A stretch of 64,000 nucleotides of DNA from positions 1 through 64,000 of the forward strand of contig NZ_LR701605.1 in assembly GCF_902498805.1 (NCBI RefSeq), in the 5' to 3' direction. Positions 59,346 through 63,949 of this stretch are shown here, piece by piece; position 1 is the stretch's first letter; each line of letters opens with the position of its first letter. Position numbers and translations under genes: made by a program. The notes below the pieces were generated by a model, which was not told the origin of the DNA, ran no database searches, and was given only the letters and a program-made list of their open reading frames with translations. The DNA comes from Imperialibacter sp. EC-SDR9. GTDB taxonomy: Bacteria > Bacteroidota > Bacteroidia > Cytophagales > Cyclobacteriaceae.

Positions 59346-59539
59346 CCCTAACGCCTGCCAAAAATGAATGTGGGAGTTTTATGCAGCTCCGCTTCTACTG
59401 GCACTTAGCCACGCCTTGCCCGCCGTAGCTTTAGCGAAGGTAGGGCGATGATAAAATTATACTTTGTGGCGCAGAATCCAAGCCAGCAAATGATTGAAAA
59501 CTGATGAAACCACCATTCATTGTTAGCGGCTTGTTACAC
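59346..59539 (-). repeat. attC-like site c
   Basis: Read on the minus strand: R'' GTGTAAC, spacer AAGCC, L'' GCTAACAATGAATGG, a ~110-base variable stem, L' CATTCATTTTTGGC, spacer, R' GTTAGGG. L'' and L' pair imperfectly. The upstream gene's stop is 4 bases before R''. R'' is the exact complement of R' of site d (GTTACAC), the other end of the same cassette. Confidence 0.75.
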
Positions 59540-59543
59540 ACAC

Positions 59544-60155
59544 TTAGTCCCTCTGCCAAGGCGTCGATGTCTGAATTTCATTATAAGCTTTGTGCAATGG
59601 GGCCATTAAAGCAGGAGAGTTCCTCGCTAGTACCTCGTTAATCTCAGTATATTTCGTATTCAAACCCTTCTCATTGGTGCAACTCAACAATAGCCTAAAC
59701 ACATTTAGAATGTCTGAATCCGTACGTGTCTCTAATTCCGTCACAACCATCGAAGGGTCTGCCAAAAGTTTGTTTAGGAGACCAAATCCGTCGACGTCGT
59801 CAGTATTTTGCCACTCGCCGTCCACACATAGGTCTATGTATTTTTTATAATATGCAGACTTGTCAATTGTCCTAAGATGGTAGAAAAAGAAGATGATTTT
59901 CAATCGATCATGGACGCCGTTTAAAGGAAGCATTCCTGTTTGCTGGTCAGCACCAAATATCGCATTTAGTTCGCCAACCGAATTTGGATATGCGCAGAAG
60001 AAATCTTGTTCGATTCGGCTATTGTGTGTAGTGTCTGTGGCCAACCTAAGCAGGTATGCAAATTTATGACTTGGGCCAACAAATTCTTTTTCAATGCATT
60101 GTCCAGGTGCTTTGAAGCAAACTATGCTAAAAAGTATGAATAAGAATGTTCGCAC
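59544..60155 (-). CDS. Cassette gene: secreted hypothetical protein
   Basis: I do not recognise the family. I start at GTG 60155, which begins a clean signal peptide ('RTFLFILFSIVCFKAPG'); the longer frame to 60218 would read 21 codons derived from the attC repeat. The mature ~185 residues are helical, with 'KFAYLLRLATDTTHNS', 'FFFYHLRTIDKSAYYKKYID' and 'DILNVFRLLLSCTNEKGLN'. It forms one complete cassette between sites d (5') and c (3'). Confidence 0.6.
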   Translation of the reverse strand: MRTFLFILFSIVCFKAPGQCIEKEFVGPSHKFAYLLRLATDTTHNSRIEQDFFCAYPNSVGELNAIFGADQQTGMLPLNGVHDRLKIIFFFYHLRTIDKSAYYKKYIDLCVDGEWQNTDDVDGFGLLNKLLADPSMVVTELETRTDSDILNVFRLLLSCTNEKGLNTKYTEINEVLARNSPALMAPLHKAYNEIQTSTPWQRD

Positions 60156-60168
60156 GCAGGTGATTTGT

Positions 60169-60359
60169 GTGTAACCTCGGTAAAATGAGTGGGGGAGTTT
60201 TATGCCGCTCCGCTTCAACTACTTCATAGCCACGCCTTGCCAGCCGCAGCTTTAGCGAAGGTAGGGCGATTATAAATTTAACTTTTGTGGCGGAGATTCC
60301 AAGCTAGCAAATGATTGAAAACTGATGACGCCGCCATTCATGGAAGCGCTGTGTTAGCA
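60169..60359 (-). repeat. attC-like site d
   Basis: On the minus strand: R'' TGCTAAC directly after the ankyrin-gene stop codon, spacer ACAGC, L'' with ATGAATGG, variable stem, L' CCACTCATTTTACC, spacer GAG, R' GTTACAC. R'' differs at one base from the complement of the core at the other end of its cassette (GTAAGCA at site e). Confidence 0.75.
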
Positions 60360-61091
60360 TTATCTTTCCTTCAGGGCTTCTTCTATCATTGATTTGATTT
60401 CAGCGTCTCCAGACTCCTTGGCGAGTTGCAATGTTGTTTTACCTTTTGGGTCTTTGTAGTTGAGCGGAGCATTATATTCAAGTGCAAGTTTAACCATCAT
60501 TGGGTTCTTAGTTTTAATGGCTTCATGGGATATGCACTCCCCGTCTCTAGCTACATAGTCAACTTTTACTCCTTGTTCGAAATAGAATTTAGCAAGTTCA
60601 ATGTTATTACTATAAACAGCTGCCAATAGAGGGGTTACACCGTCATCTGCTGAAGATTCAATATCCGCACCATACTCTAATAGCATTTTTATAAATTCTA
60701 CGGACCCTGTTTTTGAGGCAAATCTTATAGGTTGTTGGTTGGATGTGGCACTGGATCTCCAATTCACATCGACTCCATTGTCAAGCAAGATCTTAACAGC
60801 CTCAAAAGAATTTGCTCCGGAGCCAATCATTATTGGATGCATGCCATTTTTTGCAAGAAAGTTAACGTCTGCACCGTTTTTCAAAAGAATGTTTAGAGCG
60901 ATTGTGTCATTGCGAAAAACAGCCATCCAAAGAGGCGTCAGACCTTTGTCATTGAACTGGTCTGTTTTTTCACCATTCACTAAGAGCCGTTCAAGTTCCG
61001 AGTGATTCTTTTGCTCAAGTGCTTTGAAAACAGGTTGGGAAAAAACAAAGGTTGGGAAAGCTATAAGAAGGATCAGTATTACCTTTTTCAT
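60360..61091 (-). CDS. Cassette gene: secreted ankyrin-repeat protein
   Basis: 243 aa with a signal peptide (1 to about 18, FVFSQ). About six ankyrin repeats fill the rest ('GLTPLWMAVFRNDTIALNIL', 'GMHPIMIGSGANSFEAVKIL', 'DGVTPLLAAVYSNNIELAKF', 'GKTTLQLAKESGDAEIKSMI'). It probably binds another exported protein. The TAA stop abuts R'' of attC d with no gap. Second complete cassette of the array. Confidence 0.8.
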   Translation of the reverse strand: MKKVILILLIAFPTFVFSQPVFKALEQKNHSELERLLVNGEKTDQFNDKGLTPLWMAVFRNDTIALNILLKNGADVNFLAKNGMHPIMIGSGANSFEAVKILLDNGVDVNWRSSATSNQQPIRFASKTGSVEFIKMLLEYGADIESSADDGVTPLLAAVYSNNIELAKFYFEQGVKVDYVARDGECISHEAIKTKNPMMVKLALEYNAPLNYKDPKGKTTLQLAKESGDAEIKSMIEEALKER

Positions 61092-61115
61092 AGTTGCGTT
61101 CTGAAGATTTATTAA

Positions 61116-61272
61116 TGCTTACGCACAGCTATGATGAGTGGGGATTAGAAAGCACTAACCTTTCCTCTCGCACATAGCCACGCCTTGATTTAAATTTAAA
61201 ACTTGTAGCGGACTTTCCAATCCTCACCAAACTATCCTGACCGATGAAACCCCATTCATTCATAGCATTTGT
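61116..61272 (-). repeat. attC-like site e, interrupted by the group II intron
   Basis: Plus-strand left part GCTATGATGAGTGGGG pairs with the right part CCCCATTCATTCATAGC, leaving one unpaired base. The right core is split: GT at 61271-61272 continues at 63173 with TGTGG after the intron. Rejoined, R'' (minus) is CCACAAC, an exact complement of R' GTTGTGG in site f. Confidence 0.75.
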
Positions 61273-61778
61273 GTGTGCCCAGCATGGGCATCTGGTATCT
61301 AAGATACCAAATTATTCCAGAGGGTGTAACCGGCGTGGAACGATCCCTTGTGCACGGATTCGTACCCCGAAGCACTAGCAAGTCGCAAGCTCGTATGCCG
61401 TGAGGCACGGAGTGAAGGAAGCGAGCCTGCAAAACCTGGTTCCAACGAACAGGAACTGGATACAGAGGCTGTACAAGTCGGATGAGGTACCACACCATAC
61501 TGACGTCCAAAGGATGGCTTGCCATTTTGGTACTTGTGCAGTAGATCCAGTGGATATTGGGTGAAGGAATATGCCCTTACCTGGGGAGATCTCTGACTCC
61601 AAAGATTGGAGCTTGAGAAGTCAGCCGAGGTCATAGTACCGATTGGGAAACGAGCTCCGAAAGCCGGAGAGGCCTCACAAGACCGGGAAGGACTGAACAT
61701 TGAATTGTGTCCTAATTCGGATAGGAATGTCGGTTACGCCGGGATAGCCTAACCTTAAGCGGACAGGGAAGAGGAAAG
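61273..61778 (+). ncRNA. Group II intron domains I-IV (no protein gene)
   Basis: This 506-base stretch upstream of the reverse transcriptase start shows no supported ORF on either strand. It should fold as domains I-III of the ribozyme; I can see local hairpins (GGTATCTAAGATACC at about 61294-61308) but have not folded the whole. Confidence 0.6.
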
Positions 61779-63090
61779 ATGATAGAAAAAGTACTACAAC
61801 CTAAAAACCTCTATAAAGCCTACCGTCAAGTGGTAGGGAATAAAGGAGCAGCAGGAGTGGATGGGATGCAGATAAGCGAATTGAAGTCATACATTGACGG
61901 AAACCGCAAAGCTGTTCTCACCTCAATCCTGAACAGGAAGTATGTACCACAAGCTATCAGAGGGCGGTCCGCCGGTGCGGTAGAGATACCCAAGAGTAAT
62001 GGAAAGACCAGACTGCTGGGAGTCCCCATTGTAGTAGACAGGTGGCTTCAACAGGCCGTTAGCCAACAACTAGCAACACGATTTGATCGCAGCGGCGAAC
62101 CGCCTTGAATTCGAAGAAGAGAGCTATGGCTTCCGGCCGGGAAAGAACCTACACGGAGCAGTAAAACAAGCCTTGAGAAACATCAATGATGGCTATCAGG
62201 ATATTGTGGATGTTGATCTGAAAGGGTTTTTCGATGAAGTGCAACACTACAAATTGCTACAGATGATCTACAACAGGGTAAAATGTCAGACAACCTTATG
62301 GTTAATCCGAAAATGGCTACGTGCACCGATCCAGATCAACGGAAAGTTGCACAAACGCAGAAAAGGGATGCCACAGGGAAGTCCTCTTAGTCCGTTATTG
62401 TCCAATATATTATTGGATGAGCTGGACAAGTATCTCAAAAGTAAAGGCTTGAAATATGTTCGTTATGCTAATGACTTTAGTATTTATACCAAGTCAAAAG
62501 CAGAAGCCCGAAAGATAGGCAATGAAGTCTATCTGTTCCTCAAGAACAGACTGGACTTGCCCATCAACAAGGAAAAGAGCGGTATCAGAAGGCCCAACAA
62601 CTTTGAGTTGCTCGGGCACAGCTTTGTGCCCACTTACAAGAAAGAGGAAAAAGGCAAGTACCAACTAGTAGTGAAGCAAAATAGCTGGGACAACTTGAAG
62701 CGGAAACTCAAGGCTATCACCAAGAAAACGCTACCGTACAGTTTCGAAGAACGCCTTTATAAGCTCAGAAAAGTGTGGATGGGATGGGTGAATAACTACC
62801 GACTGGCAAGTATTCAAGCCAAACTCAAACAGCTTGATGAATGGTTAAGGAACCGACTCAGATACTGCATATGGCACGACTGGAAAAAGCCAGAGCGAAA
62901 GCGTAAAAACCTAATTAGACTGGGAGTGTCTCAGGGTCAGGCATATGCCTGGAGCAGGACTAGAATGGGAGGCTGGGCAGTAGCTCAAAGCCCTATCCTA
63001 GGAACTACAATTACCCTGTCACGACTGAGAAGAAAAGGATATGAAAGTATGCTCGACCATTACTCAAAATCACAACCTAGGATTCAATGA
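61779..63090 (+). pseudogene. ltrA: Broken group II intron reverse transcriptase/maturase
   Basis: The first frame (61779-62108) gives RT0-RT2 ('NKGAAGVDGMQISELKSYID', 'IPKSNGKTRLLGVPIVVDRW'); the second, from about 62109, gives the rest ('ESYGFRPGKNLHGAVKQAL', 'DVDLKGFFDEVQH', 'GMPQGSPLSPLLSNILLDEL', X domain 'KLRKVWMGWVNNYRLASIQA'). Removing 16 bases (CGCAGCGGCGAACCGC, 62088-62103) joins them as 'ATRFD-LEFEEESYGF', in register with related RTs. The catalytic motif reads YAND where YADD is expected. There is no HNH endonuclease domain. Both lesions would abolish activity, although the subfamily could carry N naturally. Confidence 0.8.
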
Positions 63091-63172
63091 ACCGCCGTAT
63101 ACGAGACCCGTACGTACGGTGGTGTGAGAGGCGCACCGGTGAGCTTAACCGCTCATCGGCCGTCTACTCGAT
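63091..63172 (+). ncRNA. Group II intron domains V and VI
   Basis: Domain V: ACCGCCGTA (63091-63099) pairs with TACGGTGGT (63115-63123), then TACG with CGTA across a 2-base CG bulge and a small loop. Domain VI: CCGGTGAGC with GCTCATCGG. An A seven bases from the 3' end is a possible branch point. Confidence 0.7.
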
Positions 63173-63182
63173 TGTGGAGCTT

Positions 63183-63770
63183 TCATCTATTCCGCAAGTC
63201 CCAGATGCTGCCAGTAATTCTTCGCAAGGTTTCCTCGTCTACGGACATTTCCATTGCGTTTTTAGTATAGTCCTTTAGAACAAAATAGATATTTTCTTGT
63301 GGCTTGTCGTTCATGATGACCGCCAAAGTTCTGAAGGTCATCGTATCGTACTCATCATCCACCATATCCGCTACCCCTATCGGATCCCAGTCATTAAGTA
63401 TCTGGCGAATTCTTTGAAACTTAGTCTCCCATTCCGGCTTGAAGTCTTCCGTCGAGCGTCCAGTGTTTTCGAATCCGATTATCTGTCCAACTATGTTTAG
63501 AAGATTAGAGAAGTAAAGTCGTGGTTCGCTCTCAAGCTCTTTAACCACAACCTTCAGGTCAGAGAAGCAGTGATGAAGAATTCGGAAATCATCTTGGCTT
63601 AGGTGTCCTTTTTGGCTTAGAAACTTCGCTATGAGACCGGCTGAGTCTGAGTCGATGAGAGCCAAATCAATGCCCATGACCTCGAGTCCTTGTGTGGCCG
63701 GAAAAGGAGCCTCAGTATGTCTATTATAAAGCAGTTGAATTTCTTTCACGTCCTGTAGGTCATGCTCCAC
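63183..63770 (-). CDS. Cassette gene: hypothetical protein with DUF1871-like C-terminus
   Basis: 195 aa, cytoplasmic. Residues 1 to about 120 are helical and unfamiliar ('LIDSDSAGLIAKFLSQKGHL'). From about 125, 'RQILNDWDPIGVADMVDDEY' followed by short helices resembles DUF1871-type small proteins, which have no known role; some look like toxin-immunity proteins. The start is GTG at 63770, inside the R' core GTTGTGG of site f; the next in-frame Met is at residue 32. The stop is 5 bases from R''. Third complete cassette. Confidence 0.6.
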   Translation of the reverse strand: MEHDLQDVKEIQLLYNRHTEAPFPATQGLEVMGIDLALIDSDSAGLIAKFLSQKGHLSQDDFRILHHCFSDLKVVVKELESEPRLYFSNLLNIVGQIIGFENTGRSTEDFKPEWETKFQRIRQILNDWDPIGVADMVDDEYDTMTFRTLAVIMNDKPQENIYFVLKDYTKNAMEMSVDEETLRRITGSIWDLRNR

Positions 63771-63949
63771 AACGCCTAGGTAAAATGAGTGTGGGAGTTT
63801 TATGCAGCTCCGCTTCCACTACATCTTAGCCCTGTCTGCCGACAGGCAGGCACGCCGATGATAAAATTATAATTTGTGGCGGACAATCCAAGCCAACTGC
63901 CCTATGACATCTGGTGAAGCCCACATTCATTTTTACCGCTGTGTTGTGC
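63767..63949 (-). repeat. attC-like site f (best preserved)
   Basis: On the minus strand: R'' GCACAAC, spacer ACAGC, L'' GGTAAAAATGAATGTGGG, variable stem, L' CCCACACTCATTTTACC, spacer TAGGC, R' GTTGTGG. R boxes pair over six bases (CACAAC/GTTGTG), spacers are 5 + 5 unpaired bases, and the L boxes pair except for one extra A in L''. This is the full attC architecture. Confidence 0.8.

Follow-up and report, generated by a model that had tools for sequence, protein, structure and literature searches.

A class C group II intron, from a lineage found mainly in Bacteroidota, in the attC core of an integron-type cassette array from Imperialibacter

Introduction

A group II intron lies precisely inside the core of an attC site in Imperialibacter sp. 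EC-SDR9, a member of the Bacteroidota, which raises the question of how it came to be there and whether it belongs to the intron lineage known for this habit. The stretch of DNA that we analyzed, referred to here as the window, comprises 64,000 nucleotides (positions 1 to 64,000 of contig NZ_LR701605.1). IIC-attC introns, S.ma.I2 and its kin, have been described (PMC7923331, PMC8876359; here and below, PMC identifiers refer to excerpts of these papers) and are given as one specific lineage (PMC7923331). Class C introns have been reported at both attC and terminator targets (PMC4424553), and for introns lacking an endonuclease, completion of insertion by replication has been described (PMC4424553, PMC7923331). 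Hosts outside the Proteobacteria had been hinted at before, since the best match of the integron-borne IIC-attC intron UHB.F1 came from a Verrucomicrobia bacterium (PMC7923331). Three introns of hypersaline integrons, UHB.I2, H.ha.F1 and H.ha.F2, are given as CL1 or class E, IIB (PMC7923331).

The setting is itself of interest. Genes for IntI and integrons in Bacteroidota have been noted earlier (PMC2426708, PMC8618304, PMC9024848), attC-like stem-loops have been suspected in Riemerella, also of this phylum (PMC13148043), and the IntegronFinder 2.0 paper, in the part cited here, gives one complete integron in Bacteroidetes proper, that of Salinibacter ruber M1 (PMC9024848). IntegronFinder requires the IntI-specific domain (PMC9668308); the corresponding insertion is incompletely conserved in an integron-like subgroup, yet is described as essential for integron function (PMC8138268).

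Results

The intron and the attC site that it splits

Direct reading placed the start of the intron at 61273 (GTGTGCCC...) and its end at 63172 (...CTACTCGAT), exactly where the domain V-VI model stops (Table 1). Without the intron the exons join as ...CATTTGT/TGTGGAGC, and the R'' core restored on the gene strand, GCTCCACAAC, exactly reverse-complements GTTGTGGAGC, with which this cassette begins, as the first-pass annotation of this DNA had claimed. Its other anatomical claims, an intron opposite to the cassette genes and an attC hairpin upstream of the junction, held as well: the intron lies on the + strand and the adjoining cassette genes on the - strand, making this an antisense insertion, and both hairpin arms precede the junction. 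The R' core of the split site is degenerate, reading GTAAGCATT on the gene strand where the cassette partner has AATGCTAAC, with one core mismatch. A third cassette read in the window, GTTACACAC with GTGTGTAAC, keeps the rule of complementary ends. A candidate R' at CACTAAC (about 61150) was rejected; an intron-free paralogue (locus L153) places R' at 61114-61123. The ankyrin-repeat cassette gene also matches the PADLOC candidate defence family PDC-M72A (89.8 bits).

Table 1. Features of the intron, the split attC site and the neighbouring cassettes in the window
Feature	Position	Strand	Details
Group II (class C) intron	61273..63172	+	1,900 nt; boundaries read directly; Rfam
RF02001 match	61394-61575	+	104.8 bits; with RF01998 spans domains I-IV (Rfam)
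RF01998 match	61600-61693	+	with RF02001 spans domains I-IV (Rfam)
RF00029 match, domain V-VI	63090-63172	+	39.8 bits, just below the gathering score of 40
Domain V with CGC triad	63089..63124	+	sequence reading
Intron RT, N-terminal part	61779..62108	+	109 aa, ends at frame change; TIGR04416 positions 2-92; alignment
Intron RT, C-terminal part	62083..63090	+	335 aa, RVT_1 and GIIM maturase domain; ORF, domain search
RT active-site motif	62464..62475	+	YAND instead of YADD; alignment
5' exon end TTTGT, IBS1 side of R'' core	61268..61272	+	-2 G and -1 T in 46/46 copies; -3 T in 44/46
3' exon TGTGGAGC, remainder of R'' core	63173..63180	+	+1 T in 46/46 copies
Split attC, R' side AATGCTTACG (degenerate core) and 5' stem arm AGCTATGATGAGTGGGG	61114..61143	+	core 61114-61123, arm 61127-61143; reading, folding
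Split attC, 3' stem arm CCCCATTCATTCATAGCA	61250..61267	+	one unpaired base in folded stem; reading, folding
Cassette-partner core GTTGTGGAGC	63764-63773	+ (coordinates)	direct reading
Cassette gene with intron-split attC	63183..63770	-	195 aa, no Pfam match; ORF, Pfam
Next cassette gene, ankyrin repeats	60360..61091	-	243 aa; ORF, Pfam
Following cassette gene	59544..60218	-	224 aa, no Pfam match; ORF, Pfam
Intact attC-like site	63764..63949		
Intact attC-like site	60167..60361		
Intact attC-like site	59348..59541		

Folded as single-stranded DNA, the intron strand upstream of the junction forms a single long stem in which one base, close to the open end, stays unpaired. The folding energy lay modestly beyond that of shuffled sequences (z -1.9; two other sites of the host genome gave -1.4 and -1.8), and none of 100 shuffles paired as well as the window site. 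Because of this pairing, and because attC sites of the same type run on without an intron, the split attC is not a chance structure. These intron-free sites came from a search, in line with the first-pass suggestion to look for empty sites, with the 183 bases upstream of the intron, a query that stops at the junction, so that the end of similarity beyond it is not visible. It matched attC-like places in 13 of 59 genomes, the host genome included. All 13 distinct other sites that match the last three bases of the query continue without an intron, with T as the next base in 12, followed by cassette-specific tails; the nearest, 95% identical, lies on another contig of the host genome (C59). By sequence, they are unoccupied sites of this attC type, which falls short of proving them to be empty alleles.

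The intron RT is split by a frame change at about 62083-62108, and no endonuclease domain was found by a domain search of its C-terminal part. Among 88 RTs compared, identical ones included, the active site reads YADD in 84 and FADD in three, and YAND in the window copy alone. Since the RT is split over two frames and has this altered motif, the window copy is probably no longer mobile by itself and would be immobile unless helped; a sequencing error is also possible. The splice-site and domain V-VI sequences look intact. The host genome carries a single copy of the intron RNA and a single RT of this lineage at E <= 1e-20; its other RVT_1 match is a retron-type RT.

Intron class and RT phylogeny

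The RNA of the window intron matches RF02001 and has in domain V the CGC triad that has been assigned to IIC (PMC7923331). RF02001 is also matched by three proteobacterial integron introns, L149 (beside blaIMP-4), L165 (arr-2, intI1) and L170 (aadA1), and covers further plasmid introns whose class is not established; three other introns, L167, L168 and L169, match other D1-D4 families (RF02004, RF02005 and RF02012). In domain V, L149 and L165 are identical to the window intron and L170 is nearly so. The best PDB matches of the window RT were GsI-IIC (6ar1, 227.9 bits) and the 7uim enzyme (202.1 bits), a class C RT of E. rectale, with LtrA far lower at 93.1 bits. In RT trees, which hold few rows from classes other than C, the window lineage is nearest to 7uim, and GsI-IIC falls inside the same larger clade. 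On its RNA family, its CGC triad and its RT, which groups with class C in the PDB matches and the trees as the first-pass annotation had anticipated, the intron is assigned to class C.

The first-pass annotation had gone further and proposed an intron of the IIC-attC type in a host outside the usual Proteobacteria. The host is indeed in the Bacteroidota, and the class, the position on the bottom strand of attC at a TTGT/T-like site in R'' and the antisense orientation agree with that type. What was not supported is membership in the known IIC-attC lineage. An intron of that proteobacterial lineage carried into the Bacteroidota with an integron would share its RNA family, domain V triad and TTGT/T junction with L149, L165 and L170, as the window intron does, and the RTs of these three references are likewise antisense to resistance cassettes. 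In a 38-row RT tree, however, the 23 rows of the mainly Bacteroidota lineage form one clade of their own (100/100), which joins 7uim and L101 at 96/90 and is nearer to 7uim and lactobacilli than to these references. A tree constrained to unite the Bacteroidota clade with L149, L165 and L170, three integron-borne introns picked by context and not by published label, was 30.89 log units worse (p-AU 0.0001). Plasmid-borne relatives outside the Bacteroidota were 25-41% identical among the 49 listed of at least 5,000. As far as the three references go, membership in the known IIC-attC lineage is not supported, and we regard such a transfer as very improbable. An earlier 76-row tree gave the same grouping; with all outgroups it drew the E. 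faecium RT, which has a long branch, wrongly to the Bacteroidota side, and was rerun minus four long rows. A fourth integron-borne intron, L171, outside the AU-tested group, has the orientation of its cassette and takes another position within class C.

Insertion sites of related introns

A scan for relatives kept 78 loci of 182 relatives, 60-89% identical, to which a genome search and one plasmid match added more loci. By record title, 75 of the 78 come from Bacteroidota or its groups, and the other three are MAG records. These three, L064, L069 and L076, are labelled Williamsia (Actinomycetota), Marinimicrobia and Ignavibacteriaceae; all being MAG records, they therefore point to misbinning or transfer. 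Genomes G021 and G034, listed under the family of the host, coincide in contigs and places with G087 (Mongoliitalea lutea) and G066 (Lunatibacter salilacus), in keeping with a host in the Bacteroidota. Among 93 entries with an intron end, 57 had both ends. Removal of 11 (three that were truncated or had no ORF, six with too short a flank, one with a mis-paired end and one duplicate) left 46 complete copies, the window copy included.

Class C introns have a short IBS1, an IBS3 of 1 nt and no IBS2. In the copies compared here, the junction reads GT/T in all 46 and TGT/T in 44, position -4 and those beyond it being free; EBS1 and EBS3 were not located. In 36 of the 46 copies the upstream region pairs with the junction region at or below 1 in 100 shuffles, and a partly different 36 reach a stem score of at least 12, a score found at 4 of 959 GTT positions in the window (positions 1-58000, 30 kb per strand), at 4 of 684 GTT positions of plasmids and, within the loci of the copies themselves, at 11 of 362 TGTT positions, which probably include some further sites of these arrays. 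When an AAC core beside the upstream arm was required as well, 32 of the 46 copies remained, versus 0/959, 1/684 and 7/362 in the respective controls. The window site scores 13, but its degenerate R' core does not satisfy the AAC requirement. Strict AAC:GTT pairing was present in 27 of 46 copies versus 29.5% in shuffles, and together with strong pairing in 25 of 46 versus 7.2%; a spacer that shifts the R box makes this duplex test a weak one. A scan by folding energy only was dropped, being without power (about 18-20 matches per 10 kb in control DNA), and a lenient pairing flag, positive in 44 of 46 copies, was set aside for want of a control.

The first-pass expectation that copies elsewhere would sit at attC sites was borne out for the 36 copies that pass the stem detector, but not for a minority. 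Of the 10 copies under the threshold, the insertions of L015 and L047 resemble intrinsic terminators by eye, and the other eight are weak or unclear. The two terminator-type insertions are what would be expected of a generic class C intron that accepts any hairpin followed by TGT/T and strikes attC only as the commonest hairpin in these genomes. Class C introns are known for terminators (PMC4424553), and just three exon bases before the junction are constrained. A preference for terminators would, however, predict many short-loop hairpins followed by a T tract, and against this stand the 36 copies at long-loop attC-like stems and the 30 of 46 that are antisense to a stop-to-stop frame of at least 60 codons ending within 120 nt downstream, a count that overlooks frames whose stop lies within the intron, as in L013. 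We therefore hold a generic hairpin target to be unlikely, and favor specialisation on attC-type sites.

A further attC-like site away from the intron was present in 33 of 77 intron loci. More than one intron copy or end was present at each of nine loci, L012, L023, L024, L029, L033, L040, L041, L048 and L061; one copy is common to L040 and L041. In L048 a pair of introns flanks about 1.1 kb. A role for such introns in cassette formation, through recombination, has been proposed (PMC7923331); the intron pair around a short stretch in L048 fits this idea and is no test of it.

The cassette array

Thirteen stretches of the host genome contain 38 merged attC-like places by manual count, some of them perhaps one site seen from two contigs, and many lie close to contig ends; one or more long arrays broke the assembly of this genome. 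In a closed genome of the same genus (G001), BLAST gave 46 merged places, spread over about 47 kb, behind a recombinase gene (locus L258, 2316-3446). Cores could be assigned at 41 attC-like sites, with a median spacing of 874.5 bp and a median length of 155 (range 114-210), and 31 of 39 cassettes have their longest frame on the same strand as the recombinase. Complementary cassette ends are the hallmark of integrons. In 23 of 40 successive sites of G001 the six bases after GTT exactly complement the six before the next AAC, versus 2.8% of 1,641 other site pairs. The remaining 17 successive pairs are not complementary; visual inspection traces part of these failures to wrongly assigned cores or an overlooked site. 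In G001 and among the window cassettes we thus found a cassette array, attC sites and complementary ends, as in integrons. Two other genomes, the closed G045 and that of Litoribacter populi, have a similar layout; in L. populi one more cassette separates the intron from the recombinase.

Close to attC-like places on contig C61 of the host genome (about 97.6-98.8 kb), we observed a retron type VI-like RT and its HTH partner (L158, 3595-4455 and 4439-4801; PADLOC RT_VI 226 bits, HTH_VI 99 bits), a defence system that may be carried as cassette cargo.

The recombinase linked to the array

The host genome encodes two recombinases of this kind near contig ends (C20 and C23), and that on C20 adjoins an attC-bearing cassette. 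TIGR02249 matched them at 207.7 (C20) and 206.8 bits (C23), each in two pieces and below the cut-off of 265, and NF040815 ('site-specific tyrosine recombinase/integron integrase') at 214.5 and 231 (cut-off 220). The intI1 of L165 gave 508.6 bits with TIGR02249 in one piece; it is the sole positive control, because all 14 control genomes also fell below the IntI cut-off. No TIGR02249 match above this cut-off was found in any of the 30 intron-bearing genomes or in the host genome. GLR and HxLRH are 91-96 residues apart in the relatives, compared with 133 in IntI1, and an alignment shows the missing block: the array recombinases resemble IntI, including S/NPLD C-termini as in IntI1, and are without the IntI-specific segment of about 42 residues. 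The host recombinases are accordingly tyrosine recombinases lacking the IntI-specific domain by which an integron integrase is recognised.

At E <= 1e-40, 30 of 59 genomes, that of the host among them, encode a relative of this recombinase. Among 60 recombinase loci of 2.4-3.9 kb each, a partly redundant set that includes Xer-like ones, 25 contain an attC-like site and the other 35 none. The stem detector found 0 sites in positions 1-57000 of the window and 3 in about 76 kb of eleven plasmid loci; it misses host sites seen by BLAST (none detected in L157 and L163) and also fires once in L162 and once in L152 away from the array. In the 33 recombinase loci with an intact frame, an attC-like site lies 3' of the gene in 18 and 5' in one. 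In the three genomes looked at, the first cassette begins with a GTT 34-50 nt after the recombinase stop, a putative attI, and nine bases at this GTT match the R'' of that cassette's own attC. A small cysteine-rich gene, zinc-ribbon-like by eye and with no Pfam match (L152, 7459-7872; L162, 2434-2820), lies on the opposite strand just before both host array-type recombinases. In Gelidibacter maritimus (G078), eight places gave the same match to a 298-aa IntI/Xer-like recombinase, which suggests that there the recombinase is part of a transposing element.

These data bear on two other accounts of the array. In the first, the repeats would not be attC at all, only some other palindromic intergenic repeat (REP- or MITE-like), with the recombinase unrelated to them. 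The lack of a match above the TIGR02249 cut-off in the host genome and in the 30 intron-bearing genomes would fit, as would the repeat-like conservation of the G001 sites around their median of 155 nt. The cassette-specific complementarity of R' and R'' tails, in G001 and in the three window cassettes with their one core mismatch, argues against it, since circular integron cassettes should show it and no simple repeat would; the recombinase at the array head in 18 of 33 loci does so too, and we give this account little credence. In the second, the arrays would be true integron arrays that are orphaned (CALIN), having lost a canonical IntI, and the linked recombinase would have another role. 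That the linked recombinases are without the IntI-specific domain speaks for it, as this domain has been called necessary (PMC9668308, citing Messier and Roy 2001; PMC8138268). Orphaned arrays are nevertheless doubtful, given the linkage and orientation seen in several genera, the S/NPLD C-termini as in IntI1, and the lack of any match above the IntI cut-off in 30 of 30 intron-bearing genomes. We prefer to view the linked recombinase as the likely integrase, which would run the array and move its cassettes.

Discussion

Taken together, we are confident that the window intron is a class C intron of a mainly Bacteroidota lineage specialised on attC-type sites in large integron-type arrays of this phylum. 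Most likely, the intron RNA-protein particle recognises the hairpin of the single-stranded bottom strand of attC and would then reverse-splice at TGT/T in the R'' core. Because the intron is without an endonuclease, the insertion would be completed by host replication, and the outcome would be an intron antisense to the cassette genes that separates R'' from the rest of the attC. The likely integrase would be the IntI-like tyrosine recombinase without the IntI-specific segment, located at the array head and pointing in the same direction as the cassettes.

The window intron is like IIC-attC introns in having class C RNA and RT, no endonuclease domain, and an antisense position on the bottom strand of attC at R'' (TTGT/T), and the integron-borne references L149, L165 and L170 have the same junction. 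It differs from IIC-attC introns in that its lineage has a separate RT clade, lives mainly in Bacteroidota, occurs in arrays where no canonical IntI is recognisable and leaves position -4 free. With terminator-type class C introns, such as B.h.I1, that of O. iheyensis and GsI-IIC, it shares the class and a hairpin 5' of an apparently short IBS1, whereas most copies of the window lineage sit at long-loop attC-like stems. Like UHB.I2, H.ha.F1 and H.ha.F2, it is a group II intron in an integron array outside the classic cases; those are IIB introns, unlike the class C intron of the window. Chromosomal (super)integrons of Vibrio are long cassette arrays with conserved attC sites, complementary ends and a tyrosine recombinase. 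The arrays described here resemble these and the integron of Salinibacter ruber M1 (PMC9024848) in their length, conserved attC sites, complementary ends and adjoining tyrosine recombinase, but the Bacteroidota recombinase is without the IntI-specific segment and is transcribed in the direction of the array.

Insertion of class C introns in attC was already known; the present case is set apart by an RT lineage of its own, by the attC preference of that lineage in many Bacteroidota and by an array whose recombinase is unusual. Within the full-text literature searched, subscription papers and preprints being outside its scope, we found no earlier report of these three, nor any paper joining group II intron, Bacteroidetes and attC, or attC site and Cytophagales. 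We lean, by a narrow balance, towards a broader reading, in which the Bacteroidota would have their own widespread type of integron, whose IntI-like recombinase dispenses with the IntI-specific domain, and a separate class C lineage would have specialised independently on its attC sites.

If a second lineage within class C, mainly of another phylum, shares this target habit, then targeting of attC has arisen, or been retained, on more than one occasion, and the dozens of natural insertions make its target rules readable. The arrays matter more than the intron. If their recombinases move cassettes, a domain held to be essential would be dispensable in part of the phylum, and much cassette traffic in the Bacteroidota would have been overlooked.
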